Part shown: positions 1 through 19,263 of the stretch, one piece after another | How the letters are laid out: each line of letters opens with the position of its first letter | Position numbering within the stretch: position 1 is the first letter of the stretch | Source of the DNA: an uncultured Gammaproteobacteria bacterium | GTDB taxonomy: Bacteria > Pseudomonadota > Gammaproteobacteria > Pseudomonadales > UBA5518 | Length of the DNA: 37,920 nucleotides | NCBI GenBank assembly: GCA_903928015.1 | Contig: CAIYPF010000032.1 | Location: 1 to 37,920, forward strand | Direction of reading: 5' to 3' | Made by a program: the position numbers and the translations under genes | Notes under the pieces: generated by a model | Databases searched by the model: none | Seen by the model: the letters and a program-made list of their open reading frames with translations, nothing else | Told to the model about the DNA's origin: nothing

Positions 1-415
1 CCACCAGCGACTCCACTCCGGCCTTGGCCGTGGCCAGCACTTCGGGCGACGGACCTGCGGGGGATGCCGGGGCTGCGGGAGCTGCAGGAACCGCAGGAGC
101 GGCAACCGCCGGCAAGGAGAGCGGCGGCAATTGGCCGCTGCCGGACCACATCGCGTCTACCGGAACCGGCTCGCCCTCGGGCACGAAGGAGCGGGCAACT
201 ACGGCATTGCCCATGGTCAAGGGATCATCGGCCAGCGAGACCTCGTGACCGAAGCCCGCGCCAAGACCCTCGGCGACCTGCGTGAAGCGGCGGTAGTCCG
301 GGCGCGACAGCGAGAGCAGCGTAACCAGGAAACAGACCAGCACGAGCAGCGTTGCCTGCAGGGCGGGCATCCACCTCGGTGCGGGCGCGTCGGCGGCGGG
401 AAAGAGCGGCGGCAC
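1..415 (-). CDS. pomB: PomB/MotB-like stator protein, N-terminal part
   Basis: This is the B subunit of a flagellar stator, cut by the left edge of the window, so only about 138 residues are visible and the peptidoglycan-binding OmpA-like domain lies outside. I chose a GTG start at 415, eleven bases after the pomA stop, with AAGG upstream. The order is a short proline-rich head, one membrane segment (about residues 16-38, beginning RWMPALQ and ending TLLSLS), then SRPDYRRFTQVAEGLGAGFG, which resembles the plug and linker of PomB, and an Ala/Pro-rich linker. In PomB and MotB the membrane segment carries an essential aspartate six residues after the tryptophan; here that position is alanine and there is no acidic residue in the segment. 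The family call rests on the resemblance and on pomA next door; ion-driven function is doubtful. Confidence 0.8.
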   Translation of the reverse strand, partial: MPPLFPAADAPAPRWMPALQATLLVLVCFLVTLLSLSRPDYRRFTQVAEGLGAGFGHEVSLADDPLTMGNAVVARSFVPEGEPVPVDAMWSGSGQLPPLSLPAVAAPAVPAAPAAPASPAGPSPEVLATAKAGVESLV

Positions 416-426
416 GGCTGCGGCCT

Positions 427-1185
427 TCAGACAGGAGCCACGCGACGCTGCCCTTCGGGCAGGTAGCGTTGCAGGGCGTCCTGCATGATGCGCGGACTCT
501 GGCCAGCCTGTATCGCGAGCAGGCCGTCAATCACCAGCGACTGCATCAGGCTCTGCTGCGCGGCGCGCAGGCGCAGCTTTTCTGCCAGCGGATAACAGAC
601 CATGTGCGCGAGCAGCACACCGTAGAAAGTGGAGAGCAGGGCGATCGCCATGCCCGGTCCGAGGGAGCGCGGATCCCCCAGATTTCCCAGCATCTGCACA
701 AGACCGACCAGCGTTCCGACCAGCCCCATTGCAGGCGCCGCCTCGGCAATGGCGAGGATTATGCGCTGGCCCCACTCGTGGCGTTCGAGCGTGAGCAGAC
801 GGTCTTTCTCGAGTGTCTGATGCAGCAACTCGGGTGCGTGACCTTCGGCTACCAGCTTCAGACCCTCGGCCATGAAACGGTTGGGAGATGCCTGATTCCT
901 GAGCGTCTGCAGCCCGCCGTGGCGGGTGAGGCCAGCCAACTCCAGCAGCCGCGCAATGACCCGCGCCGGATCCTCCGGGCGGTACACGAAGGCCTGCGCT
1001 GCAACCTCCAGCGCACCCAGCAACTGAGGGGCACCGAACTTGATCATGACCACGAAGGCCGTGCCGCCCAGCACCAGAAGCAGCGAGGGCAGGTCCAGGA
1101 AAAGACCCGGATCCCCGCCGAGAAAAACGGCGAGAAACAGCACGCCGAGTGCGCCGGCCAGGCCGGTAATGGTTGTCAGGTCCAC
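427..1185 (-). CDS. pomA: PomA/MotA-type flagellar stator channel protein
   Basis: The product is the four-helix channel subunit of a flagellar stator, of the PomA subtype. The GTG start at 1185 gives 252 residues, close to the usual 253 or so, and is preceded by GGAGGA ten bases upstream; an upstream in-frame extension would run to 1338 but matches nothing in the family. The protein opens VDLTTITGLAGALG, has membrane segments near residues 1-22 and 28-48, a long cytoplasmic loop, and the diagnostic C-terminal block PAMGLVGTLVGLVQML then GDPRSLGPGMAIALLSTFYG, which keeps the conserved threonines and proline of PomA. It is followed directly by pomB and is divergent from xseB, the arrangement seen in Vibrio and Pseudomonas. 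Because its partner lacks the ion-binding aspartate, whether this pair powers rotation is open. Confidence 0.9.
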   Translation of the reverse strand: MDLTTITGLAGALGVLFLAVFLGGDPGLFLDLPSLLLVLGGTAFVVMIKFGAPQLLGALEVAAQAFVYRPEDPARVIARLLELAGLTRHGGLQTLRNQASPNRFMAEGLKLVAEGHAPELLHQTLEKDRLLTLERHEWGQRIILAIAEAAPAMGLVGTLVGLVQMLGNLGDPRSLGPGMAIALLSTFYGVLLAHMVCYPLAEKLRLRAAQQSLMQSLVIDGLLAIQAGQSPRIMQDALQRYLPEGQRRVAPV

Positions 1186-1352: not shown

Positions 1353-1604
1353 GTGACTGATACCCCGAAAACCCCGGATTTCGAGCAAGCGCTGGAGGCG
1401 CTCGAGGCCTTGGTCGAGCGCATGGAAGAAGGAGACCTCAGCCTCGAGGAATCGCTGTCGGCCTTCGAACAGGGCGTGAGGCTCACCCAGGACTGCCAGC
1501 TCGCGCTGGGGGAAGCCCAGCAACGCGTGCAGGTGCTGCTGATGCAACAGGACGGGACTCCGCGCCTCGCACCCTTCGCCGACACTGGCGACAGCCAGGG
1601 CTGA
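1353..1604 (+). CDS. xseB: exodeoxyribonuclease VII small subunit
   Basis: The product is the small subunit of exonuclease VII, which binds XseA to form the enzyme that cuts single-stranded DNA into oligonucleotides in the cytoplasm. It is 83 residues, the normal size. The helical core [20 protein letters not shown] followed by [16 protein letters not shown] is the family signature. It starts with GTG at 1353, preceded by GGAG at 1343-1346. The last codons lie seven bases before ispA, so the two are almost certainly cotranscribed; xseB-ispA-dxs is a standard gammaproteobacterial order. The large subunit is not in the window, which is normal. Confidence 0.95.
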
Positions 1605-1611
1605 AGGCCCC

Positions 1612-2511
1612 ATGAACCGTCCCCCGGCCAGCCTCGACGACCACCGCGCACGCGTCGAAGCGGCAATCGGGCGCTTGCTGCCGCCGCCAGATCCCGCGCT
1701 GCCCGAGCGCCGACTGATCGAGGCCATGCGCTACAGCCTGCTTGCCGGCGGGAAGCGGCTGCGCCCGGTGCTCTGTCTGGCAGCGGCAGAGGCTCTCGGC
1801 GGTCCGCACGTACCGGACGATGACGTTGATCGCATCTGTGTCGCCATCGAGTGCATGCACACCTACTCGCTGATACACGACGACCTCCCGGCCATGGACG
1901 ACGACGACCTGCGCCGCGGCAAGCCCACCTGCCACCGCGCCTTCGACGAAGGCACGGCCATCCTCGCCGGCGACGCCTTGCAGGTGCTCGCATTCGAACT
2001 GATCGCAGAGGCACACGGCATCAGCGAGAGGAACCGGCTCGCCCTGCTCACGACGCTCGCCACGGCCAGTGGTGCCTCGGGCATGGTCGCGGGCCAGGCA
2101 ATGGATCTTGCGTGCGTGGGACAGGCGCTGGAACTGCCCGCGCTGGAACGGATGCATGCGCTCAAGACCGGTGCGCTGATCCGCGCCGCGGTGCGCATGG
2201 GAGGGCTGCTTGGCGGCGCCGGTGAAGCCGGACTCGCTGCGCTCGATCGCTACGCCAGCGCCATCGGGCTCGCCTTCCAGGTCCAGGATGACATCCTCGA
2301 CGGCACGGGCACCGCAGCCAGTCTTGGCAAGGAGCCGGGGGCCGACGCGGCGCGCGACAAGCCCACATTCCTCAGCCTCATGGGCGAGCGCGGGGCCGTG
2401 GACTACGCCCGTTCGCTCTGCGAGCGCGCGCTGGACGCCCTGTCACCCTTCGGCGAGCGCGGGCAAGGTCTTGCAGAGATGGCGCGTTTCATCGTGGCCC
2501 GTGACCGCTGA
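1612..2511 (+). CDS. ispA: (2E,6E)-farnesyl diphosphate synthase
   Basis: The product condenses dimethylallyl diphosphate with two isopentenyl diphosphates to make geranyl and then farnesyl diphosphate, the precursor of undecaprenyl carrier and quinone side chains. It has 299 residues, as in Escherichia coli. The first aspartate-rich motif DDLPAMD is at residues 90-96 and the second, QDDILD, at 225-230; GGKRLRP (about 46-52) is the substrate-binding GKR motif. KEPGADAARDKPTF near the end is typical of bacterial short-chain prenyltransferases. The ATG at 1612 follows AAGG overlapping the xseB stop. It lies 57 bases before dxs, the first enzyme of the pathway that makes its substrates. Confidence 0.96.
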   Translation: MNRPPASLDDHRARVEAAIGRLLPPPDPALPERRLIEAMRYSLLAGGKRLRPVLCLAAAEALGGPHVPDDDVDRICVAIECMHTYSLIHDDLPAMDDDDLRRGKPTCHRAFDEGTAILAGDALQVLAFELIAEAHGISERNRLALLTTLATASGASGMVAGQAMDLACVGQALELPALERMHALKTGALIRAAVRMGGLLGGAGEAGLAALDRYASAIGLAFQVQDDILDGTGTAASLGKEPGADAARDKPTFLSLMGERGAVDYARSLCERALDALSPFGERGQGLAEMARFIVARDR

Positions 2512-2568
2512 TTGCGGCATCATGACGCCCCTCACGAACACCCGGCCGCGACGCCGCGCAAGCAGTAC

Positions 2569-4485
2569 ATGAAGGTCTTCACACAGATTCCGCCAACGCG
2601 GCCCGTCACCCCGCTGCTCGACACGCTGAGCCTGCCGGAGGATCTGCGGGAACTCTCTCTGGCCGAACTCCCCCGCCTGGCCGATGAACTGCGCGAATTC
2701 CTGCTCTACAGCGTCGGCCAGACCGGCGGTCATTTCGGGGCAGGGCTGGGGGTGGTGGAACTCACCATCGCGCTCCACTACATCTTCGACACGCCCTTCG
2801 ATCGCGTTATCTGGGACGTAGGCCACCAGAGCTACCCGCACAAGATCCTCACCGGACGGCGTGAAGCCATGCTCAGCATGCGCAAGGCCGGCGGGCTGTC
2901 CGCCTTCAACAACCGCAGCGAGAGCGAGTACGACGCCTTCGGCGTGGGCCACTCCAGCACCAGCATCAGCGCCGCGCTCGGCATGGCGCTGGCGGCACGC
3001 GCCCGCGCCGAGCGCCGGCGTGTTGCTGCCGTGATCGGCGACGGAGCCATGACCGCGGGCATGGCATTCGAGGCCCTGAACCACGCGGCGCACACCGACG
3101 CCGATCTGCTCGTGGTGCTGAACGACAACCAGATGTCCATTTCGCGCAACGAAGGCGGGCTCGCCTCGTACTTCGCGAGGGTCTGGGCAAGCCCCCTCTA
3201 CAACTCCATGCGCGAGGGCGGCAAACGCGTGCTTTCCCGCCTGCCCGGGCCGGCGCTGGAGATTGCGCGCCGCACCGAGGAACACATGAAGGGCATGCTG
3301 GCGCCCGGCACGCTCTTCGAAGAGTTGGGCTTCAATTACATCGGCCCCATCGACGGCCACGACCTGCCGCTGCTGATCGAGACCATGGGCCACGTACGCG
3401 AACGCCAGGGCCCTCAGTTGCTGCACGTGCTGACGGTGAAGGGCAAGGGTTTCGGGCCCGCAGAGCGCGACCCGGTGGGCTACCACGCCATCAACAAGAT
3501 CGACCCGGCGCCCACGAACAGCAAACCGAAGAAGCCGCTCAGCAAGTACCAGGACATCTTCGGTGCCTGGCTCTGCGAGATGGCCGAACAGGATCCCCTG
3601 CTGATCGGCATCACGCCGGCAATGTGCGAGGGCTCGGGGATGGTCGAGTTCTCCAAACGCTTCCCGGAGCGCTTCCACGACGTGGCCATCGCCGAGCAAC
3701 ACGCCGTCACGCTGGCAGCGGGGCTTGCCTGCGAGGGCATGAAGCCGGTGGTGGCGATCTACTCCACTTTCCTCCAGCGCGCCTACGACCAGCTTATCCA
3801 CGATGTGGCCCTGCAGGATCTGGACGTGCTCTTCGCCATCGATCGCGCCGGACTGGTCGGCGAGGACGGCGCAACCCACGCGGGCAGCTTCGATCTGAGC
3901 TACCTGCGCTGCGTTCCGAACATGGTCGTGATGGCGCCCTCGGACGAGGACGAAGCACGCAAGCTCCTCAGCACCGGATACTTCCACAAGGGTCCGGCGG
4001 CGGTGCGTTATCCGCGCGGCACCGGGCCCGGTGCGGCCATCACGCGCTCGCTGGACACCGTGGAGATCGGCCGCGCTCGGCAGCTGCGCGAGGGTAAAGG
4101 CGTAGGCATCCTCGCTTTCGGAACCATGGTGGCGCCGTCGCTGCAGGCGGCCGGGGCACTGGATGCATCAGTGGCCGACATGCGCTTCGTGAAGCCGCTC
4201 GATGAGGAACTGGTGCTGGCCTTCGCGGCCAGGCACAAGCTGCTGGTGACTACCGAGGAAAACACGCTCGCCGGCGGCGCGGGAGCGGCCGTATCAGAGT
4301 TGCTGGCGGCGCGGGGAATCGTGATGCCGGTGCTGCACATCGCGCTGCCCGACCGCTTCCTGGACCATGGCAAACCACAAGACATGCTGAAAGACGTGGG
4401 GCTGGACGCAGCGGGTATCGAAGCCTCGATACGCGCCCGCCTGAAGGCCATGCGCCCGCCACCGAAGAAACGCCCCTCCCGCTGA
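2569..4485 (+). CDS. dxs: 1-deoxy-D-xylulose-5-phosphate synthase
   Basis: The product joins pyruvate and glyceraldehyde 3-phosphate to give DXP, using thiamin diphosphate and magnesium; DXP feeds isoprenoids, thiamin and pyridoxal phosphate. The frame is open from just after the ispA stop, but I chose ATG 2569 (MKVFTQIP), giving 638 residues against about 620 in Escherichia coli. Visible motifs are GHFGAGLG (54-61), VGHQSYPHK (84-92), the thiamin diphosphate-binding [15 protein letters not shown] (158-172), and [12 protein letters not shown] with catalytic Glu near 376. The ribosome binding site before 2569 is weak, so the first residues are less certain than the rest. The gene converges on ribA with only 15 bases between the two stop codons. 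Confidence 0.96.
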
Positions 4486-5157: not shown

Positions 5158-5820
5158 TCAGCGTTCGCGGAGGTACATGACCCCCGCCTCCTCCCGAAGG
5201 CTCACCCGCTGCAACCACGACATGCCGAGCAGCGCGGGTTCGGGGTGCGGGCCTTCGATCACGGTGGCACTGACGTTGCGCACCAGGATGCCCGAGATCT
5301 CGACACGATCGAGGGTGAGGCCCCAGGCGTCGGCCAGACCGGCGGCGGTCTGCACACGGGTCAGTGCGCCGCGCCGGCGGTAATCGATGCCGAGGCGATC
5401 GGCATCGTTGCCGCTCAGCGCCACCACATTGGCCCCGGTGTCGACCATGAACGACACCTGCCTGCCGTTCACGCTGCCCACGACGCGGTACTCGCCTCGT
5501 TCGTTGCGGGAGACCGGGACTTCACGCCTCCCGGGGCTGCTGAAAGCACCACCGGCATCGCGCCCGGGAGCGAGGTGCACCTGACGGCCTGCGACCTCGA
5601 CGACCGCCTCGCGGGACGAGGCCGCGACCAGTCGGACGCCTTCGGGCGAGGTCTGGCCGACGCGCAGCAGCCGCGGGGTGCCGTCGATACTCAGCATCGC
5701 GCGCCCTTCGAAAAGGGCGTTGGCCGTGATCGAGGGATCCTCGCAGCGTCCCGTCAGAGGCATCGCCAGCATCAGGCAGAGAAGCACCCCGAGCGGCGCT
5801 GCGTGGCGATGCTCAGGCAT
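5158..5820 (-). CDS. retropepsin-like aspartic protease, secreted
   Basis: The protein has 220 residues with an N-terminal hydrophobic stretch (PLGVLLCLMLAMPL, about 9-22) that looks like a signal peptide, a spacer of about 95 residues, and a C-terminal single-domain retropepsin fold: GSVNGRQVSFMVDTGANVVAL holds the catalytic DTG, and ALLGMSWLQRV is the usual C-terminal block. This matches the bacterial clan AA family often named TIGR02281, which would act as a dimer in the periplasm; substrates are unknown to me. The ATG at 5820 overlaps the end of thiL by eight bases, implying translational coupling. In many gammaproteobacteria pgpA follows thiL at this place, so its presence here is unusual. 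Enzyme activity is inferred from the motif only. Confidence 0.85.
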   Translation of the reverse strand: MPEHRHAAPLGVLLCLMLAMPLTGRCEDPSITANALFEGRAMLSIDGTPRLLRVGQTSPEGVRLVAASSREAVVEVAGRQVHLAPGRDAGGAFSSPGRREVPVSRNERGEYRVVGSVNGRQVSFMVDTGANVVALSGNDADRLGIDYRRRGALTRVQTAAGLADAWGLTLDRVEISGILVRNVSATVIEGPHPEPALLGMSWLQRVSLREEAGVMYLRER

Positions 5821-6772
5821 CGGTGTTTGCCCCGAAGTGCTGGAATCCCGCGTGCGCAGGACTGAACCCGGGGCAGCGGATGCCCTCGCCCGCGTGCACC
5901 CGGCCGATGCGGCGACAGGGAAGGCCAAGGCGCCCGGCAGCGGCACTGATGTCGGCTGCGGCCGAAGGAGGCGCGGTGAAGCAGAGCTCATAGTCATCGC
6001 CACCGCCAAGGCAGAGCTCAAGGGCCTCGTCGCGCGGCAGGCTTGCGAGCCCGGCCTCGAGGGGCAAAAGCGCAGCGTCAATCTCGATGCCACAGCCGCT
6101 GCGTTCGGCGATATGCCCGGCATCGGCCAGCAAACCATCAGAGACATCGATCGCCGCGCTCGCAAGGCCAAGCAGCGCAAGGCCGAAAGCAATACGGGGT
6201 TCGGGCCACAGAAAAGCAGCGCAGGCGGGATCCTCGGCCTCAGCCCCCGACTGCAGGAGACGCAGACCGAGTGCGGCGAGGCCAGGCCGCCCCGTGACCC
6301 AGAGCTCATCACCGGGACGGGCACCATCGCGACGCAGGGCAGCGCCGGGGGCTGCCGCGCCATGAACCTGGATGGTGACGGACAGGGGGCCGCGCGTGGT
6401 GTCGCCGCCGACCAGCGCGATGCCCGCCCGGCTGGCGAGTTCGCCCAGCCCCTCGGCAAAATCGGCGAGCCAGCGCGGGTCGGCCTCGGGCAGCGTGATT
6501 GCGAGCGTGAACCACAGGGGCCTGGCGCCCATGGCGGCGAGGTCGCTCAGGTTGACGGCCAGCGCGCGGTGGCCAATGGCACGGGGCGAGAGGGATGGGG
6601 GAAAGTGGACGCCTGCGACCAGCGTATCGATAGAGACGAGCAAGTCTTCGCCGGAGGGCACTCGCAGGATGGCCGCATCGTCGCCGATGCCCAGCACCAC
6701 GCCCTCTGCAGGCCCTGCAGCGGGCAGCGCGCCGAAGTAGCGAGCGATCAACTGGAATTCGGAGAGCGGCAT
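5813..6772 (-). CDS. thiL: thiamine-monophosphate kinase
   Basis: The product phosphorylates thiamin monophosphate to thiamin diphosphate with ATP, the last step of thiamin cofactor synthesis. The ATG at 6772 (MPLSEFQLI) gives 319 residues, close to the usual 325; the frame is open further upstream but that stretch overlaps nusB and matches nothing. Signature blocks are GIGDDAAIL near 28-36, SIDTLVAGVHF near 47-57, the magnesium and substrate site AIDVSDGLLAD, and LGGGDDYELCFT. It lies 25 bases downstream of nusB and overlaps the following retropepsin-like gene by eight bases. The nusB-thiL pairing is common in proteobacteria. The ribosome binding site is weak, consistent with coupling to nusB. 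Confidence 0.94.
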   Translation of the reverse strand: MPLSEFQLIARYFGALPAAGPAEGVVLGIGDDAAILRVPSGEDLLVSIDTLVAGVHFPPSLSPRAIGHRALAVNLSDLAAMGARPLWFTLAITLPEADPRWLADFAEGLGELASRAGIALVGGDTTRGPLSVTIQVHGAAAPGAALRRDGARPGDELWVTGRPGLAALGLRLLQSGAEAEDPACAAFLWPEPRIAFGLALLGLASAAIDVSDGLLADAGHIAERSGCGIEIDAALLPLEAGLASLPRDEALELCLGGGDDYELCFTAPPSAAADISAAAGRLGLPCRRIGRVHAGEGIRCPGFSPAHAGFQHFGANTDA

Positions 6773-11309: not shown

Positions 11310-12734
11310 TCAGGCCTTGTCGATACGGCGCGCCTCTTCCAGACCACGCGTAAGGAAGGGGTTGCGGCGAGCAAGCTCGTCAGCAAGTACCGCCTGGCTC
11401 TGCTCGTCCAGGATCCGCGTGACGATATTCGACAGCGCGGTCATGCCCTGGTTGATGAACAGCAGCGGAATTGCGATACCCAAACCGAGCACCGTCGCGA
11501 TCATGGCTTGGCCGATACCATGAGCCATCAGTTTGGGATCGCTGGAGCCGGAGGACGTGATCGCATGGAAGGTCACGATCATGCCGATAACCGTACCGAT
11601 CAGACCGAGGAGGGGGCCGGCAGCCACACCAAGGCGAAGGAAGGCCTGGAAGCGCTGGAGTTTCGGCACTTCACGCAGCACGGCCTCGGAGATCTTGAGT
11701 TCAACCACCTCGGAGCTTTGATCTGCGGTGCCATCCTCATGCATAGCCAGCAAAACACGTCCCAGCGGATTGTCATTGCGCGGAGCGGAGAGGTTCTTCA
11801 ATTGCGCAAAGACTTTGCCGCGGGTGATGAAGAGGTACACGTACTGGTACATCGCCAGCAGCACGCCCAATCCACCCACGAAGAGGATCACGTAACCCAC
11901 CACTTCGCCGTGCTGGATACGCTCGACCATATTCGGCCGCTCGGAGAACATTCCGATCATCGCACCGCGAGCCGGATCGACCACCGCAGTGGTGTAGCCG
12001 TCGCCGCTTGACTCGGACAGATCCTCAGCCAGACCCATCAATTTGGGCGTGAGGTCGCGGTCGAGTTCGGACAAACTGAGCGTGCTGGAGTCATAGCGGA
12101 GATAGTTGCCGCCGGACACCGCAGTAAAAGGACCGACACGCACGATGTCGGCCTCTGCTGTCGTGCCATCGCGCATCTTCACCGGAGCCTTGAAGCGCGC
12201 GACTTTCGAAGTCTCCGTCATTTCGCGCTGGAGCTCGAACCACATCCGCTGCAACTCGTCGATGCCCGGGAGTTCTTTTGCACCGGCAATGCGGCGCATG
12301 AAGACATCTCGCGCTTCCTCGCCCTCTGCCGGGCGGAACTGTGCGCTAAGCATCGAGTTGGTAAGCACCGTCGCCGCATCGCCTGCGATCTGGCGGGTAA
12401 CACCGAACAGCTCGCCGAGGTTTCCTTCGCGCTGGCGCAGGAGGTCCTTGAATTCGGTGATGCGAGCGTCGTTCTGGGTCCACTCTGCATCGAGGGCCTT
12501 GGTGCGGGCGTCAGCGCGGTTTTTGCGGCTTACGGCCTCGGCTGCCTGCTGCTCCTGCTTCTGGAGCTCGGCGCGCTGGCTTACTTCACGATCCTTCCAG
12601 ACCTTGGCTTCACGATCACGCATCGCGGCAGCCTGACGCTGCAATTCTCCGACGCTGACCGCAGCTTGTGGGGCGGCCCACGGCAGCAACGTCAGTGCGA
12701 CGGCTGCAATCTTGATCATCCGTACGCAGTTCAC
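11310..12734 (-). CDS. TtpC-like MotA/TolQ/ExbB family protein, second copy
   Basis: The 474-residue protein has a signal-like N-terminus (about 1-25), a periplasmic coiled coil rich in Gln, Glu, Lys and Arg (about 29-105), a periplasmic domain to about 275, then an ExbB-type membrane part with segments near 279-303, 367-390 and 408-432. The block GPLLGLIGTVIGMIVTFHAI and AMIATVLGLGIAIPLL keep the threonines typical of ExbB/TolQ channels. The architecture matches TtpC, the extra subunit of TonB2 systems in Vibrio. The GTG start at 12734 overlaps the DUF3450 stop (GTGA) and has AGGAGGT six bases upstream. It is a paralogue of the gene at 16671-18062 and is the last gene of the operon, just before the terminator. 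Confidence 0.88.
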   Translation of the reverse strand: MNCVRMIKIAAVALTLLPWAAPQAAVSVGELQRQAAAMRDREAKVWKDREVSQRAELQKQEQQAAEAVSRKNRADARTKALDAEWTQNDARITEFKDLLRQREGNLGELFGVTRQIAGDAATVLTNSMLSAQFRPAEGEEARDVFMRRIAGAKELPGIDELQRMWFELQREMTETSKVARFKAPVKMRDGTTAEADIVRVGPFTAVSGGNYLRYDSSTLSLSELDRDLTPKLMGLAEDLSESSGDGYTTAVVDPARGAMIGMFSERPNMVERIQHGEVVGYVILFVGGLGVLLAMYQYVYLFITRGKVFAQLKNLSAPRNDNPLGRVLLAMHEDGTADQSSEVVELKISEAVLREVPKLQRFQAFLRLGVAAGPLLGLIGTVIGMIVTFHAITSSGSSDPKLMAHGIGQAMIATVLGLGIAIPLLFINQGMTALSNIVTRILDEQSQAVLADELARRNPFLTRGLEEARRIDKA

Positions 12735-13441
12735 GAGCGGACCTCCTGCGCAGCCGGCACCGGGATATTCATCACGTCAGGGGCAACTTCTTTGCGCGCA
12801 ATTCTGAGTGCCTGGGACACTGCATCCTTGTAGTCGTTGTCGACTACCCACTTCTTCTGGCTCGCATCCCAGTAACCGCTTTCTTCGCCGTCTTCCGTCC
12901 GGTAAAGAAGGCTTACACGGCCGACGCGCACGTACTCGGCCTTCCGGCCGTCTTCGAGCGTGCCGGTGTAGGCTGCCATTGTCCGACCGTAGTCGATCTC
13001 GATCTGGTAGGCCTCGAGCACCCGGCGGTACTTTTCTGCAACGCTTACGCTGGCGTCAGCCATCATGTCCTTGAGGTGCTGCATCCGGTCCTTGCGGCTG
13101 TCGGCGCTGTCGCCGATCGGATCAAGGAAAGGCAGGTCGCCTGCGACGAATTTGTCCAGGTCTTCGTACATGCGCGTTAGCAGAGGCACGATTTCGGCAG
13201 CGGTCGCGTCCAATTGGACGGCCTGCGCCTCGACATCGGCCAGACGCTGCTGCTGGGTGGAAATCTGCTTCTGCAGCGTCTGGTTGTGACGCTCGAAGCT
13301 TTCGGTGTCTGCAGACAGCTTGGCGTAGCGCTGGCCAGAGTCCTCCGCGTGGGCAACCACGCTTCCGACGCCCAGCAGCACCGCAATCGCGATGCCTGCA
13401 ACCCTGGGGACAGGGCCTTTGAATGGTCTGTTGCGGCTCAT
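12731..13441 (-). CDS. DUF3450 family periplasmic protein, second copy
   Basis: From ATG 13441 the product has 236 residues; the longer open frame upstream lies inside the TPR gene and is not used. An N-terminal hydrophobic segment (VAGIAIAVLLGVGSVVAHAE, about 13-32) should be a signal peptide or anchor. A long coiled coil follows (about 40-90), then the conserved half beginning EKYRRVLEAYQIEIDYGRT and containing VRVGRVSLLYRT, GYWDA and WVVDN. DUF3450 proteins are regularly found beside TtpC-like genes in TonB operons and are thought to work with them in the periplasm; the molecular role is not known to me. It lies 20 bases after the TPR gene and is a clear paralogue of the gene at 18059-18847. 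Confidence 0.87.
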   Translation of the reverse strand: MSRNRPFKGPVPRVAGIAIAVLLGVGSVVAHAEDSGQRYAKLSADTESFERHNQTLQKQISTQQQRLADVEAQAVQLDATAAEIVPLLTRMYEDLDKFVAGDLPFLDPIGDSADSRKDRMQHLKDMMADASVSVAEKYRRVLEAYQIEIDYGRTMAAYTGTLEDGRKAEYVRVGRVSLLYRTEDGEESGYWDASQKKWVVDNDYKDAVSQALRIARKEVAPDVMNIPVPAAQEVRS

Positions 13442-13461
13442 GGCTGGCTGTGGTCCTCGAA

Positions 13462-14694
13462 TCAACCCTTCTGCACCTTGATCAACTGCAGATAGCCGTC
13501 GGCCATCTTCCTGTGCTTCTCGAAGCCCCGGGCGCGGTTGAAGGCTTCGCCAGCGGCACCGTAGTTCTTCTGGTTGAACTGCGAGATGCCAAGCAACAGT
13601 TGCGCGTTGCCGGCGTCTTTCAGGCTGCCTTTGCGGATCGCGCTCTGAAGCGCTTTGGCGGCATCGGCCCATTCGCTGCGCTGGATCTGCACTTCGCCAA
13701 GGCGTACGTAGAGGTCGCCATTGCCGGACATCTCAGCTGCGCGGCCCAAGGGGCTGATGGCCTTGGTGAAGTCACGTGCGCTGATCCAGCAGTTGGCTTG
13801 CTTCTCGTAGAGCTTTGCGTCGGCCTTTACTTGTTTCTTGGCGAGCGCCTCATCAAGCGTAGTGCCGCAGCGGTAAGGGAGTTCGTTGAAGAGCTGGAGG
13901 TCCGCCAGGCGGCGAATGTCCGAATCTTCTGTGACGATCCCCGCGTTGTAGGCGATCTGCATTGTGCTGAGCGCCTTCATATAGTCTTCCATCTGTCCGT
14001 ACACAGAGGAGAGTTGCTGCCAGTAGCTCTTCTTGTCCGGCGTCATGGAAATCAGTTTCTTCAGCAGCGGCACTGCTTCCGAATAGCGGTCCTGCTGAAG
14101 GTACAGCGCGAGGACGAGCTGAACCCAGCCTTCTTGCGGCTTGTCGGTGAGATCCACGGCCTTTTGGGCCGGCGGAGTAGCACGCTTGAAGTCGTTTTGC
14201 TGGTAGTAAGCTACGGCGAGCAGGTAGTACGCAGCTCCGTTCGGATTCTGGGCCGTACGGAACCACTCCTCCAGAGCCGCTGCGCCCTCTTTCCACTTCT
14301 CTTCCGCAAGAAACATCTGCGCCATCTGGTAGCGCGTGTCGGAAATCTCCTTGTCGTTCAGGCCGCCGGCTGCAATGGCCGCCTGCAAGTGTCCACGTGC
14401 CTTGCCGTAGTTGTCCTGCGAACTCTCGATGGTTGCGAGAATCTGTTCGGTACGGCTGCGCTCGTAAGGACTCAGCGTGTCCATTTTGAGTTTGGCGATA
14501 GCGGCCTTGGCGCCGCTGTAATTTTCCTTGTTCAGCGCTTCGATCGCCTCAGTCAGGATCTTGCCGGTCGCGGCATCGATCCCGGTGGGCGGGGGAGCAT
14601 CATCCTTTTTCTTTTCGGCCATGGCCTGGCCGGCCAGCGTAAACGCCAGCAGCAGGGCAAGAGTTGCACGGAGCAGGAACTGCGTCATCGCCAT
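13462..14694 (-). CDS. TPR-repeat protein of the TonB system
   Basis: The 410-residue product has a signal peptide (about 1-26, ending AGQAMA) and then helical repeats along its whole length, recognisable as tetratricopeptide-type units (for example AAYYLLAVAYYQQNDFKRA and AQLLLGISQFNQKNYGAAGE). It is expected in the periplasm. TPR proteins follow tonB in the TonB2-type clusters of many gammaproteobacteria and are thought to assist receptor coupling, but no enzymatic motif is present. Two start codons are possible, ATG 14694 and ATG 14688; GAGG sits better spaced for the second. The gene starts three bases after the tonB stop, so the two are translationally linked. Confidence 0.85.
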   Translation of the reverse strand: MAMTQFLLRATLALLLAFTLAGQAMAEKKKDDAPPPTGIDAATGKILTEAIEALNKENYSGAKAAIAKLKMDTLSPYERSRTEQILATIESSQDNYGKARGHLQAAIAAGGLNDKEISDTRYQMAQMFLAEEKWKEGAAALEEWFRTAQNPNGAAYYLLAVAYYQQNDFKRATPPAQKAVDLTDKPQEGWVQLVLALYLQQDRYSEAVPLLKKLISMTPDKKSYWQQLSSVYGQMEDYMKALSTMQIAYNAGIVTEDSDIRRLADLQLFNELPYRCGTTLDEALAKKQVKADAKLYEKQANCWISARDFTKAISPLGRAAEMSGNGDLYVRLGEVQIQRSEWADAAKALQSAIRKGSLKDAGNAQLLLGISQFNQKNYGAAGEAFNRARGFEKHRKMADGYLQLIKVQKG

Positions 14695-14697
14695 GCC

Positions 14698-15297
14698 TCA
14701 ATTCTCCAGGTCGAAGCGGATGATCGTGCGCACACCGCGACGCTCGACAGGCTGACCGTTCTCGACCTTCGGGTTGTAGCGCCAGCGGCTGATGGCCTTG
14801 AGCGCTGCGTCGTTGAAAATGGTGGCGGGTTTGGAATCGACGACTTTGGCGTCTTTAACCGAACCAGTACCTGTGATGGTGAACTCCACGAGCACCCACC
14901 CTTCGATGCCGCGGTTCACGGCACGAGCAGGGTAATCGGGCGGAACACGCACCAGAGGGATGGTGTCACGATCCGAGCCGGCCGAAATGTTCAGCCCACT
15001 CATCGCGCCGCGCGCATCAACGCTCGGTGTCAAGGACGCCACGTTGCTGTCCACGCTGCCCGTCTGGAACTGCATTTTGGGGACTTCGGGTGCCGGCGGC
15101 GGGCGCTCGCGCTCTACTTTTTCTTCGCGCTTGCTGGCAACGTCTGTGTCTTTTCGCATCCGTGTGAATTCGATGCGCGTAGCCTCACGCATCGCTTCAG
15201 CGTCGATGGGGCGGCTGATCAAACTGGATAGCAGCCAGAACATCGACAGCGTCAGGATGCCGCCGAGAAGCAGGGATAATGGCAGTCTCTTAAACAA
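14698..15297 (-). CDS. tonB: energy transducer TonB
   Basis: The product carries proton-motive energy from ExbB-ExbD to outer-membrane receptors. I chose TTG at 15297, preceded by GGGAG seven bases upstream, giving 199 residues; the GTG at 15372 has no ribosome binding site and lies inside exbD. The protein has one N-terminal membrane helix (about 5-27, LPLSLLLGGILTLSMFWLL), a short charged Pro/Glu/Arg linker (EKVERERPPPAPEVP) and the C-terminal TonB fold with PPDYPARAVNRGIEGWVLVE and AALKAISRWRYNPK. The short helix and short linker resemble TonB2-type rather than Escherichia coli TonB. The start is the least certain part. Confidence 0.9.
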   Translation of the reverse strand: MFKRLPLSLLLGGILTLSMFWLLSSLISRPIDAEAMREATRIEFTRMRKDTDVASKREEKVERERPPPAPEVPKMQFQTGSVDSNVASLTPSVDARGAMSGLNISAGSDRDTIPLVRVPPDYPARAVNRGIEGWVLVEFTITGTGSVKDAKVVDSKPATIFNDAALKAISRWRYNPKVENGQPVERRGVRTIIRFDLEN

Positions 15298-15322
15298 AGC
15301 AATAACTCCCGCAGTTCCCGGA

Positions 15323-15733
15323 TCAGCCGCCGCCGGCCGTGTCGGCCGCGATGGCGACGTCTTTGATTCCACCCGCGCGCACTTCGTCCATTACCTTCGC
15401 GACCATGCCGGCATGCGATGCGCGATCGGCGATGATCACAACGCTGTCGTCAGGGCGTTCGATGTGGAGCCGCTCGATAACAGTGCGAACAGTGCGGATG
15501 TCGATCGACTGCCGGTCGAGCCAGATGTCGCCGTTCTCACGAATTGCGATCAGCAAATTTCCTTTCGGGCGCTCTTCAGCAGTCGATGCGAGCGGCTTGA
15601 ACACTTCGATACCAGGCTCCTTGATGAAGGAGGTGGTAATGATGAAAAAGATCAGAAGGTTGATCGTGAAGTCGAGCATCGGCGCAAGGTCGATGCCATG
15701 GTCTTCAGTTTCGGCCGAGTGTTGTCTGGACAT
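15323..15733 (-). CDS. exbD: biopolymer transporter ExbD, second copy
   Basis: ExbD is the inner-membrane partner of ExbB in the TonB motor. The ATG at 15733 has GGAG seven bases upstream and gives 136 residues; the longer frame to 15805 runs into the neighbouring exbD. One membrane helix (about 17-36) contains the essential aspartate, Asp21 in DLAPMLDFTINLLIFFI. The periplasmic part (KGNLLIAIRENGDIWLD and SVVIIADRASHAGMVAKVMD) is the usual ExbD/TolR fold. It follows the other exbD by 13 bases; the two share the helix but differ in the periplasmic domain, so both are likely functional and may form a mixed dimer. Confidence 0.93.
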   Translation of the reverse strand: MSRQHSAETEDHGIDLAPMLDFTINLLIFFIITTSFIKEPGIEVFKPLASTAEERPKGNLLIAIRENGDIWLDRQSIDIRTVRTVIERLHIERPDDSVVIIADRASHAGMVAKVMDEVRAGGIKDVAIAADTAGGG

Positions 15734-15746
15734 CTGTTTGCTCCGC

Positions 15747-16157
15747 TCACTCGGTGGTGGTGAACGTGATGTTGTAGATACCGCCCAGGTGCACCTGTTC
15801 GACAATCGAAATCAGGGTTCCGGTCGGAGATTCCGAGCCCGCAAGCACCAGCACGCCAGAGTCAGGATTAACCGCGCTCATGCGCTCTACGTTTGCACGC
15901 ACGGCGCGCACGTCGACTTGGCGGTTGTCCATATAGATCTCGCCCGTGTCAAGCACCTGGATCTGGATGCTCTTCGAGTCATTGTCATCTGGCTGATCAA
16001 AGCCAGTGGGGCGATTCACTACCACGGCGGTCGCTTTGACGAACACCGCGGTGATGATGAAGAAGATCAAAAGGTTGATGACGAAGTCCAGCATCGGCGC
16101 AAGGTCGATACCGTGTGCGGACTCACCGTGTTCCTGTACGCGACGTTTGAAACGCAT
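15747..16157 (-). CDS. exbD: biopolymer transporter ExbD, first copy
   Basis: This 136-residue ExbD has a basic cytoplasmic head (MRFKRRVQEH), a single membrane helix with the proton-carrying aspartate (Asp24 in DLAPMLDFVINLLIFFI) and a periplasmic ExbD/TolR domain (SIQIQVLDTGEIYMDNRQVD and GVLVLAGSES). It starts two bases after the exbB stop and precedes a second exbD by 13 bases. Paired exbD genes occur in many TonB2-type operons. The membrane helices of the two copies are nearly identical while the periplasmic halves have diverged strongly. Confidence 0.94.
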   Translation of the reverse strand: MRFKRRVQEHGESAHGIDLAPMLDFVINLLIFFIITAVFVKATAVVVNRPTGFDQPDDNDSKSIQIQVLDTGEIYMDNRQVDVRAVRANVERMSAVNPDSGVLVLAGSESPTGTLISIVEQVHLGGIYNITFTTTE

Positions 16158-16159
16158 GG

Positions 16160-16678
16160 CTAGAGCTGCAACCTGTCGGCTAGGAGTTCAGTTTCATGGG
16201 CTGCCCGGGTACGGAAGTAATGCACCGGGTAAAGCCCCGTGATGCTTACGGCCAATCCGGTCATGGTGCAAATCATTGCCTCGGATACACCGCTGGCCAT
16301 CGATCGAGCGTCTGCGTTACCGCGGAGAGCCATCGAGTCGAATACCCCAAGCATGCCGGTAACTGTACCGATCAGACCCAACAGAGGCGACATTGGCACC
16401 AGCACCTGTAACACAGGGAAGCCGACTGTCATGTCCTGGTTGAGCCGTGAGATCATGGTCTGGCGGATCTGCCTGGCGCACCATGAGCTGTGGTCAGTAC
16501 GTGCGAGCCACTGTTTCTGCATTTCCGAGGCCTGCTTGGGCAGTACCCGCTGGAAATACCAATACCGCTCGATCGTAAGGCCCCACATCAGGACGCCGCT
16601 GGCGAAAATCCAGCCTACGAAGGGGCCTCCATCTGCCAGCAGATGGAGGAACCCACCAACCAGCGGAAGATCAGCCAC
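16160..16678 (-). CDS. exbB: TonB-system channel protein ExbB
   Basis: The 172-residue product is a short ExbB of the MotA/TolQ/ExbB family with three membrane segments (about 18-40, 90-113, 133-155). LVPMSPLLGLIGTVTGMLGV and SEAMICTMTGLAVSI hold the conserved threonines facing the ExbD helix. The GTG start at 16678 overlaps the end of the upstream TtpC-like gene by eight bases. In TonB2-type systems this compact ExbB is the actual channel and the larger TtpC-like protein next to it an accessory subunit with its own ExbB-like domain. It is followed by two exbD genes and tonB. Confidence 0.94.
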   Translation of the reverse strand: MADLPLVGGFLHLLADGGPFVGWIFASGVLMWGLTIERYWYFQRVLPKQASEMQKQWLARTDHSSWCARQIRQTMISRLNQDMTVGFPVLQVLVPMSPLLGLIGTVTGMLGVFDSMALRGNADARSMASGVSEAMICTMTGLAVSITGLYPVHYFRTRAAHETELLADRLQL

Positions 16679-18062
16679 GACGATTCCTCTCGATGCTTTC
16701 TGCCAGCATGCCGGCCGACTGCTCTTCGATGACCTGGGTTATGCCCTTGGACAGCGACGTGAGCAAGGCGTTGGCAAACAGCAGCGGGATGGCGATACCC
16801 AGACCGAGAACTGTCGCGATCATGGCCGCACCGATACCGTTGGCCATCAGTTTGGGATCGCTCGAACCCGATTCCGTGATGCTTTGGAAGGTCATGATCA
16901 TACCGAGAACGGTACCGATAAGACCGAGCAAGGGTCCTGCAGCAACACCCAGTCGGAGCATTGCCTGGAATCGCTCGAGCTTCGGAACTTCGCGGAACAC
17001 CGCCTCTGCGATGCGCAGTTCTGCAACGTCGGCGTCTTGCTCGATGGAATTGCCATCACCCTTGAAAGCCATCAGCACGCGACCCAGCGGATTATCCGAG
17101 GCGGGCTTGCCGAGGTTTTTAAGCTGGGCGGACACTTTCATGCGAACCATGATCAGGTAGGCGACCTGGAAGAGGAAGCACAGGAACGCTATGCCACCCA
17201 CTGCAAGGATCACGTAGTTGACTGACTCGCCATGCTCTACGCGCTGACCCCAGGTGGGACGCTCTACATAGAGGGACATCAGAACACCGCGCGATCCATC
17301 GACGACTGCCGCAGGGTAACCACTCGTTGCTGCCGCAAATTCGGCAGCTGCAGCCATGAATTCCGGCGGGGGCTGGCGGGGGAATACGCTGAAGGCCTTC
17401 AGATCAGGAAGGTAGTTCAGGTACTTTCCTTCGGAGATGGCCGTAAACGGGCCGATCCGGATCACTTGGGCATCGACCGGCGCGCCGCCAGGCTGAACCA
17501 CCTTGGTGGTGTACTTGACGACGCTTCCGCTCTGGCTCATTTCACCGTAGAGCTCAAGCCAAAGCTGCTCGAGTTCAGCGCGTACCGGAGCTTTCTGCGA
17601 GGCCGCAAAGCCACGCAGGAAGTCGTCGCGGCTGGGCTCACCGGCCTTGGCCGGGAACTGCGTGGAGATCAGCGACTGCTGCAGCACACTGGCGGTATCG
17701 CCAGCAACCTGCCGGGCAAGACCGAAGACTTCCTGCAGGCCGAGAGCTGCTGCTTTTTCGCGAAGCTTCTTGTCCGCCTCGTTGATCACGAGCTCGTTTG
17801 CCGAGAACTGGGCCGAGAGCTTGTCTGACTCTGCGGACAGCGCCTCACGACGGGACTGGGCGTCGGTGAGCAGCTTCGCCTGCTGATCTGCAGGCGCCGC
17901 GTTGTACTGGTCGGCCCGCTGCTGGAACGTCTGCTGCTCCGCGGTGCGGGCGGCTTTTACTTCCTGGAGGAGACCTTCAAGGGAGTCCTGAGCCAGGGCT
18001 GCACCGGTGTGCAGCATCGCGGCCGCAGCCGCGACGAGGATGAACTGCTTGGACTTGATCAC
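16671..18062 (-). CDS. TtpC-like MotA/TolQ/ExbB family protein, first copy
   Basis: The 463-residue protein has a signal peptide (about 1-25, ending AALAQ), a periplasmic coiled coil (about 27-105), a periplasmic domain up to about 280, and an ExbB-type part with membrane segments near 281-305, 371-393 and 412-436. GPLLGLIGTVLGMIMTFQSI and AMIATVLGLGIAIPLLF are almost the same as in the second copy at 11310-12734. Its GTG start overlaps the DUF3450 stop (GTGA) behind AAGGAGG. The layout matches TtpC of Vibrio TonB2 systems, where the protein is needed for TonB2-dependent uptake; that function is inferred here from architecture and gene order. Confidence 0.9.
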   Translation of the reverse strand: MIKSKQFILVAAAAAMLHTGAALAQDSLEGLLQEVKAARTAEQQTFQQRADQYNAAPADQQAKLLTDAQSRREALSAESDKLSAQFSANELVINEADKKLREKAAALGLQEVFGLARQVAGDTASVLQQSLISTQFPAKAGEPSRDDFLRGFAASQKAPVRAELEQLWLELYGEMSQSGSVVKYTTKVVQPGGAPVDAQVIRIGPFTAISEGKYLNYLPDLKAFSVFPRQPPPEFMAAAAEFAAATSGYPAAVVDGSRGVLMSLYVERPTWGQRVEHGESVNYVILAVGGIAFLCFLFQVAYLIMVRMKVSAQLKNLGKPASDNPLGRVLMAFKGDGNSIEQDADVAELRIAEAVFREVPKLERFQAMLRLGVAAGPLLGLIGTVLGMIMTFQSITESGSSDPKLMANGIGAAMIATVLGLGIAIPLLFANALLTSLSKGITQVIEEQSAGMLAESIERNRRG

Positions 18063-18847
18063 GACCGGGCCTCCTTCGGAGCGGGAACGGGGACAGTCAG
18101 CAGGTTCGGCGGACCATCCTTTTTGGCAACACGACGGGCCTCGGCAACGGCAGCGGCGTAGCTGTTATCGACCACCCAATCTTTCTTGTCAGCATCCCAG
18201 TAGCCGGTCTCGGTGCCGTCGAGCGTCTGGTAAAGAAGCGCTACGCGACCAAGGCGGACAAACGAGACAGTACGTGCGTCCTGACCGGAACCCAGCAAGC
18301 CGTCGTATGACTCCAGCGTACGACCGTACTCGAGCTCGATCTGGTAGGCCTCGATGATGCGACGGTACTTCTCGGAGATGGTCACGTCTGCGCGCGGCAT
18401 GATGTCCTGCAGGGTCTGAACCCGGCTGGTCCGCTCGGCGAGCAGGAAGGGCGTGTCAAGCGACACGAACTTCTGCAGCGTGTCGACCATGCGCTGCATC
18501 AGCGGCTGGACTTCACGACTGGTGGTCTCGATCTCCAGCAGCTGCGTCTCTATTGAAGAGACCTCATCTCGCTGGGCCTTGACCTGCTTGTCGAGTTGGC
18601 TGTTGTACTTTTCAAGGCTCTCGGCATCAGCAACCGCCGATGCATAGCGGCTGGCCGCATCCTGCAGACGATCACGAATCTCGTTGATGCGCTTCTGTGA
18701 GGAAGCGGCCGCCTTGTCGGCTTCGCCTTGGGTGGCGATGGCGTTGTCTAGCGACTGGGCAGATGCCTGCTGTGCGGCAACTGCCACCACGCCTGCCACC
18801 ACGATGGACGCCAGCGTCCTCGTGATCCTTGTGATGGAAAGACTCAT
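18059..18847 (-). CDS. DUF3450 family periplasmic protein, first copy
   Basis: This is the first gene of the TonB operon. ATG 18847 follows AGGAGG eleven bases upstream and gives 262 residues. A signal peptide (about 1-30, ending QQASAQ) is followed by a long coiled coil (about 32-115) and the conserved DUF3450 half (EKYRRIIEAYQIELEYGRTL, VRLGRVALLYQT, GYWDA, WVVDN). The C-terminal half is roughly half identical by eye to the copy at 12731-13441, and both end in a PVPA-x-x-E-x-RS tail that overlaps the following TtpC-like gene by four bases. A periplasmic structural role with TtpC is likely; no catalytic motif is visible. Confidence 0.88.
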   Translation of the reverse strand: MSLSITRITRTLASIVVAGVVAVAAQQASAQSLDNAIATQGEADKAAASSQKRINEIRDRLQDAASRYASAVADAESLEKYNSQLDKQVKAQRDEVSSIETQLLEIETTSREVQPLMQRMVDTLQKFVSLDTPFLLAERTSRVQTLQDIMPRADVTISEKYRRIIEAYQIELEYGRTLESYDGLLGSGQDARTVSFVRLGRVALLYQTLDGTETGYWDADKKDWVVDNSYAAAVAEARRVAKKDGPPNLLTVPVPAPKEARS

Positions 18848-19263
18848 GACGGATAGCGCCTCCTGATCTGGACGGACCGAAGCCTGGGAACGTGAAGTAC
18901 TGCTTGAACAGGGCAACATCAAAAAAACCTTGCACAATTTATGTTCTGGCGAGCTCGGGGACAGCCCCGAAACTGACACCGCCAATGTTCAGTGCGACCG
19001 TACTGTAGCTTCTCGAATTGTGAGTGGCAAGACGGATTCACGCCTCAGCGAAAAAAACATCGGCGCGTCCTCGGACTCCGTTTCTGGCGACGGCGAACCA
19101 TGCAGGTGGACCGAGGACCACAGGCCCGGTCCGCTCGGCCTAACGCGATTCGCAAATGGTATGGACGGCGCGCGCCCTGGTTGCCTTATACTTGGCCGAG
19201 GCCGCGCGGAGCCCTCGGCACCGCGTCACGGCAGAACCAAAAAATAATCGGCAGGGGGAGCCC
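18848..19263. other. 416-base divergent intergenic region between the TonB and nuo operons
   Basis: No gene is visible here; it should hold the promoters of both operons. The part next to the TonB operon is AT-richer, with an A7 run at 18931-18937 and AATTTATG after it. A perfect six-base-pair hairpin with loop ACAG lies at 18955-18970 (TCGGGG / CCCCGA). Near nuoA a seven-base inverted repeat GCCGAGG / CCTCGGC sits at 19195-19201 and 19213-19219. I found no convincing sigma-70 promoter for the TonB side and no sequence resembling a Fur box. Confidence 0.7.
19162..19192 (+). promoter_or_regulatory. candidate nuo operon promoter
   Basis: TATACT at 19187-19192 matches the -10 consensus at five of six bases, 71 bases before the nuoA ATG. 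The only -35-like sequence is TGGACG at 19162-19167, four of six matches with a long 19-base spacer, so an activator or another promoter may be involved. Confidence 0.35.

Follow-up and report, generated by a model that had tools for sequence, protein, structure and literature searches.

A PomAB-type stator gene pair without the ion-binding aspartate in three species of an uncultured gammaproteobacterial genus

Three species of an uncultured gammaproteobacterial genus harbour a homologue of the flagellar stator pair PomA/PomB, in which the only membrane helix of the B subunit lacks the ion-binding aspartate, a residue whose conservation across stator families is stated to be universal (PMC10374538). 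The pair occupies the same locus in all three species and is accompanied by two Asp-bearing stator pairs in each genome. It probably represents a unit kept by selection that does not drive the flagellar motor.

The window, i.e., the whole stretch of 37,920 nucleotides that was analysed, starts at base 1 of contig C32 of the genome designated G000, and further genomes, G001 to G004 of the same genus and G005, were compared with it. The names pomA*/pomB* (proteins PomA*/PomB*) denote the pair at the Asp-less locus of G000, G001 and G004; full-length pomB* genes are found at the loci L013 (G001) and L014 (G004), and L062 and L155 are the loci of G002 and G003. On the minus strand of the window, pomA* lies upstream of pomB*, and beyond pomA* follow, in divergent orientation, three genes which we take to be xseB, ispA and dxs. 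The relevant features are:

2..415, minus strand: pomB*, the PomB homologue without the Asp; it begins with GTG and is cut by the contig edge after 138 codons, so that its 3' part is missing
353..355, minus strand: GCA codon for Ala, aligned with Asp24 of Vibrio PomB
308..364, minus strand: single transmembrane helix of pomB*, ALQATLLVLVCFLVTLLSL, with 0 acidic residues; extent inferred from the alignment to PomB
251..304, minus strand: plug-equivalent segment of pomB*, RPDYRRFTQVAEGLGAGF, with E41R and M42P, and D43 and F47 kept (Vibrio numbering)
427..1185, minus strand: pomA*, the PomA homologue and partner gene; it ends with the stop codon 427-429 and probably begins with the GTG at 1183-1185
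898..900, minus strand: AGG, an Arg codon, for residue 96 of PomA; Glu in 95 and Arg in 2 of 101 related loci
1353..1604, plus strand: xseB, syntenic anchor, divergent from pomA*
1612..2511, plus strand: ispA, syntenic anchor; the same gene adjoins pomA in G001, G002 and G004
2512..4485, plus strand: dxs, syntenic anchor; mechanical open reading frame limits

A full-length pomB* orthologue used as query matched no contig of G000 besides C32. Comparison of the loci places the same ispA and dxs genes beside pomA in G001, G002 and G004. In G001 and G004, pomB* is followed on its 3' side by a gene for a PilZ-domain protein (Pfam 32.3 bits in G001, cut-off 22.5; the G004 gene is a homologue by reading). 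The PilZ protein is encoded at L013:2-559:- and has homologues in L014 and L155; the sequences RxxxR and NxSxxG, which we take to be the PilZ motifs, look intact in L013 and L014.

In a phmmer alignment the Ala of the G001 orthologue sits under Asp24 of Vibrio PomB (8bri chain F), and the window copy aligns with this orthologue without gaps around the position. The corresponding codon is GCA (Ala) in G000, GCC (Ala) in G001, GTG (Val) in G004 and GAC (Asp) in G002. None of the three PomB* helices (ALQATLLVLVCFLVTLLSL, TLLATLLVMLCFTVVLLSF and TLAVVLLAIVCMLVVMLSL) contains a D or an E; the helix of the Asp-bearing G002 protein reads TFADMMTLLMCFFVLLLTF. These results agree with the preliminary description of this DNA, which had noted an Ala in place of the conserved Asp in a helix free of acids, had proposed a comparison with orthologues in related genomes and had named an acid elsewhere in the helix as contrary evidence; no alignment places one there in the window, in G001 or in G004. 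A replacement acid was likewise not seen in the membrane segments of PomA*, as judged by eye from the alignment. Among named GTDB loci, 80 were kept from 534 with a related PomA, and all 80 (including G002 as L062) carry the Asp in the gene next to pomA. In a sample of 390 genomes of the order, only G000, G001 and G004 exceeded the 58% identity of G002 among the matches listed, and in a sample of 369 genomes of the class, whose matches did not include G001 and G004, nothing apart from the window reached E <= 1e-80.

The preliminary description had also asked whether the genome encodes a second stator pair and flagellar genes. Indeed, G000, G001 and G004 each encode two further Asp-bearing B subunits with adjoining A subunits, and each yields one match for FliG. 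The two additional pairs of G000 are of the MotAB type (contig C103) and, within a flagellar cluster, of the MotCD type (contig C65); their A and B subunits are homologous to those of the Asp-less pair, and both B subunits retain the Asp and are more constrained than PomB*. G002 keeps PomAB with the Asp at the same locus. In G003 (L155, G003:C10:72000-81500, around 5223-6301) there is no pomA or pomB between xseB and pilZ, the PilZ gene stays in place, and the genome contains one MotB_plug match. G005 yields no PomA or PomB* match, and its contig begins inside ispA. Thus, the genus shows three states: PomAB with Asp (G002), PomAB without Asp (three genomes) and loss of the pair (G003), and we infer that the Asp-bearing pair came first and either lost its Asp or disappeared. 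As G003 retains the PilZ gene in the absence of pomAB, the adjacency of that gene to pomB* proves nothing.

The loss of Asp24 is not an isolated change. According to the preliminary description, the rest of the helix, the plug side and the neighbouring pomA were well kept; this part did not hold up, as the rotor face, the helix, the plug boundary and, in G001 and G004, the peptidoglycan site are all altered. Positions were regarded as conserved if at least 95% identical in a background of 101 related PomA loci and 95 PomB loci kept by script. By this measure, 38 of 47 conserved PomA positions are unchanged throughout the three Asp-less species (G002: 46/47), compared to only 19 of 53 conserved PomB positions (G002: 50/53).

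On the side of PomA*, K89 is replaced by His in all three species (Lys in 99/101 related loci), and the charge at E96 is reversed by Arg in G000 and Lys in G001 and G004, at a position occupied by Glu in 95/101 related loci, by Arg in 2/101 and by a residue other than Glu in 6/101. D114 is replaced by Glu, which preserves the charge, M155 by Leu and T185 by Ser, Ala and Ala (G000, G001 and G004, respectively); Leu155 as well as Ala or Ser at 185 also occur in 2/101 Asp-bearing related loci each. R88, P151, T158, T186 and R232 are kept. The PomA charges at R88, E96 and D114 are reported to be indispensable for motility, and a M155L mutant to retain 80% motility (PMC10374538). This rotor-contact set is not intact in PomA*, E96 being reversed and the other two charges being kept. 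The same source gives Ala at T158 and T185 in H+-driven stators; thus, although Vibrio mutants with T158A, T185A or T186A are reported as not motile (PMC6677748), the change of T185 would not by itself exclude drive.

On the side of PomB*, the loss of Asp24 is accompanied by the replacements of S27 by Leu, Glu41 by Arg and Met42 by Pro. The changes F22L, E41R, M42P and, in PomA*, K89H are common to all three Asp-less species, which points to one ancestral change and constraint thereafter, and the new states RPDYRR and GSGQLPPL are identical across them. The OmpA domains of G001 and G004 have Ala instead of the Asp of GHTD and Asp instead of the Asn of SNW, and the Leu and Arg are kept. Hence, two of the four positions (D, N, L, R) reported to bind the peptidoglycan component DAP in TagL (PMC8253398), and transferred from there by alignment, are replaced; the G000 copy ends before this domain.

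PomA* belongs to the MotA/ExbB family (PF01618, 87.4 bits, cut-off 22.9) and matches PomA over its whole length (phmmer E 1e-70), and the OmpA-like domain of PomB* scores above the Pfam cut-off of 27.2 (46.9 in L013, 50.3 in L014). The more specific profiles are failed. For the NCBIfam PomA equivalog NF006527 (cut-off 341) the window and G004 reach 289.6 and 296.0, respectively, versus 377.8 in G002. The NCBIfam PomB-type subfamily NF006508 (cut-off 259) gives 111.4 for L013 and 341.9 for G002. With the MotB_plug profile PF13677 (cut-off 24) the window copy scores 14.8, L013 19.6 and G002 63.6, and L014 yields no match at E <= 1. Because several tests that define PomAB stators are failed, the pair is most likely derived from PomAB rather than a member in function.

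In spite of these changes, the pair has not simply decayed, since the frames of pomA* and pomB* are open, with no internal stops, and dN/dS lies well below 1. NG86 estimates of dN/dS amount to 0.10-0.15 for pomA* and 0.23-0.34 for pomB*, the two other motB genes showing 0.06-0.13, and bootstrapping of the G000-G001 pair yielded 0.065-0.156 for pomA* and 0.10-0.34 for codons 1-95 of pomB*. In codon models, w is 0.050 in pomA* and 0.126 in the N-terminal part of pomB* (2dlnL versus w=1: 357 and 92, respectively), 0.083 for the full-length pomB* pair of G001 and G004 and 0.021-0.033 for the other motB genes (three taxa), and w=1 is rejected in each case. The 45 codons of the transmembrane helix and plug of pomB* give 0.033 in the codon model and 0.13-0.38 by NG86, values that are relied on only inasmuch as both are below 1. 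Overall, w lies between 0.008 and 0.38, depending on the gene, the region and the method used; the minimum stems from a saturated pair.

In branch models of pomB, the stem, crown and background classes are separable (p 0.0002), and w is higher in the crown (0.123) than in the background (0.039). The stem estimate lies at its bound (7.4) with saturated branches, and for this reason no positive selection is claimed for it. In the three-class model of pomA, w is 0.053 in the crown versus 0.023 in the background (p 0.022). Simulated random neutral substitution at 0.3 per site left 0.95% of copies stop-free, and fewer at larger distances. The constraint on the pair is real and weaker than in its Asp-bearing relatives. 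A pseudogene was considered and rejected in view of the open frames and a dN/dS not near 1. The opinion voiced in the preliminary description, that neither simple decay nor a frameshift is involved, is sustained by the open frames, the low dN/dS and an Asp loss common to three species.

Compared to the Na+-driven polar flagellar stator PomAB of Vibrio (PDB 8BRD, 8BRI), PomA* aligns along its whole length, and PomB* of L013 shows the same layout of transmembrane helix, plug, linker and OmpA domain. In contrast to Vibrio PomAB, Asp24 is absent, E96, K89, T185, S27 and E41 are changed, and so are the OmpA ligands in G001 and G004; unlike G002 PomAB, the pair scores below the curated PomA and PomB cut-offs. 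The residue missing from PomB* is the one removed in engineered ion-dead stators, namely Vibrio PomB-D24N, Borrelia MotB-D24N, and Pseudomonas aeruginosa MotB-D30A and MotD-D23A. However, these are laboratory mutants of working units, whereas the loss in PomB* is natural, extends to three species and comes with many further changes. No natural Asp-less or inactive stator is described in the titles and opening abstracts of the literature searched, in which few subscription journals are covered, and the main text of a survey of stator evolution (PMC12505986) nowhere contains the string “aspart”.

We consider it probable that PomAB* is a selected, non-driving unit of one kind or another, an estimate that overlaps with two of the alternatives weighed below, a motor brake and a repurposed unit. 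In such a scenario, an ancestral PomAB at the xseB-ispA-dxs locus would have turned into a non-conducting, non-driving “pseudostator” in the ancestor of the three species. Because both subunits are under constraint, PomA* and PomB* probably continue to form a complex, which would be an A5B2 unit of the inner membrane. The unit would be without a known route for Na+ or H+ and presumably unable to push FliG, against which the reversed E96 argues. The constraint on both subunits suggests that the value of PomAB* lies in being present, not in driving. The preliminary description had anticipated a non-driving or repurposed pair, and the shared Asp loss, the open frames, the low dN/dS and the two other Asp-bearing pairs speak in favour of that proposal. 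Several findings weigh against a “pseudostator”: the constraint on pomB* is clearly weaker than that on the two Asp-bearing B subunits; some of the changes (E96, M155, T185) recur in Asp-bearing relatives, and the OmpA domain passes the Pfam cut-off; and the pair occurs in only three genomes, the window copy being cut by the contig edge.

What such a permanently idle unit might do is less certain. It could be retained because it regulates, or acts as a scaffold, in the control of the flagellum or of c-di-GMP, a specific role that we regard as conceivable but doubtful. The analogy is with P. aeruginosa, where MotCD units removed from the motor are reported to stimulate the cyclase SadC, and where a PilZ-type c-di-GMP-binding protein, FlgZ, acts on MotCD, such that a stator signals besides producing torque (PMC12288467). 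Unlike PomAB*, however, MotCD has retained the Asp and powers the motor. Moreover, Asp-mutated P. aeruginosa stators in a flgK background lost rather than gained signalling (PMC12288467), which argues against a signalling version of PomAB*.

A unit that docks, occupies stator sites and lowers torque, and thus acts as a brake or dummy, would be a version of a non-driving unit and seems improbable. Borrelia MotB-D24N units do remain in place, about 7 per motor, in cells that are immotile (PMC6663468), P. aeruginosa MotB-D30A is possibly dominant negative in the view of its authors (PMC12288467), and R88 and R232 of PomA are kept. Yet, docking by the known contacts should be poor, given the reversal of the FliG-facing Glu96 and the replacement of two of the four peptidoglycan-ligand positions in G001 and G004, and inspection by eye of the FliG C-termini of G000, G001 and G004 revealed no obvious change matching the rotor face of PomA*. 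With the contacts to rotor and wall altered, a regulator or scaffold is more plausible than a docked brake. The same alterations, together with the conserved PomA core, would suit a passive membrane scaffold or sensor that works with other partners outside the flagellum, again a version of a non-driving unit; it is an unlikely one, and the immediate neighbours xseB, ispA, dxs and pilZ indicate no other system.

A redundant stator in slow decay, the frames of which are not yet broken, would be in keeping with the loss of pomA and pomB between xseB and pilZ in G003, the weaker constraint on pomB* than on the other motB genes, the fact that 34 of the 53 conserved PomB positions differ in one or more of the three species and the elevated w in the crowns of both genes. 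However, this explanation, too, has only a small chance of being correct: dN/dS is far below 1 in pomA* as well as in pomB*, few simulated neutral copies stay free of stops, 38/47 conserved PomA positions persist in all three species, and RPDYRR and GSGQLPPL are identical across them. That the pair still drives the motor, with ions passing via PomA Thr158/Thr186 or water alone, is very improbable. Although P151, T158 and T186 of PomA are kept, Vibrio PomB-D24N is reported as not motile (PMC6677748), Borrelia MotB-D24N is likewise non-motile (PMC6663468), P. aeruginosa MotD-D23A behaves as a motD deletion, and MotB-D30A swims below the deletion and swarms like wild type, MotCD being present (PMC12288467); furthermore, the PomB* helix contains no substitute acid, and its S27 is changed to Leu. 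Finally, a sequencing or assembly error would be easy to imagine for a gene at the end of a draft contig, but it was ruled out by Ala and Val at the same position of L013 and L014; as the loss recurs in three genomes, with two residues in place of the Asp and numerous further changes in common, its probability is next to nil.

A second stator protein without the Asp came from a MotB_plug survey of 66 genomes of the order. The survey scored the G000 copy at 16.2 and missed the G004 copy; since it is insensitive to the Asp-less clade, its negatives mean little. Eleven lower-scoring or odd matches, hand-picked and not comprising every weak one, were read: ten carry Asp at the position (one of the ten, L176, does not look like a MotB), and the one from genome G010 carries Asn. 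The latter, L169:376-1191:- (G010:C1:2164275-2165090), is a MotD-type B subunit with Asn for the ion-binding Asp, RWLSSYANFTTILVALF, in a genome consisting of one contig. The other PomB of G010 (L023) has the Asp, and the MotD-type partner keeps the RK and E of the rotor face, as judged by eye. All of the best 29 other loci matching the G010 protein bear the Asp, and the protein is at most 35% identical to any match listed, over most of its length. G010 apparently represents an independent natural loss of the Asp, with a base error being possible in this single genome.

Taken together, PomB* (Ala/Val) and the MotD-type protein of G010 (Asn) may belong to a natural class of ion-dead stators with at least two origins in the order, which occupy, sense or signal instead of driving; this generalization is tentative, its chances being somewhat below even. 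Passive pseudostators, made by selection out of working units, would then stand to stators as pseudokinases stand to kinases. In a gene pair that selection keeps without the Asp, the purpose of a stator becomes separable from its driving force, and the Asp-less lineage provides natural material for testing the non-torque roles of stators.

Two minor observations concern related genes. At L177 (G057:C4:313500-315600) the MotB plug is matched in two frames (314479-314544 and 314540-314620), suggesting a frameshift. The window itself also contains, on the minus strand at 11313-18985, a TonB-ExbBD-like cluster, which comprises three MotA_ExbB genes, two consecutive ExbD genes, a TonB_C gene and the genes for a TPR protein and a DUF3450 protein.
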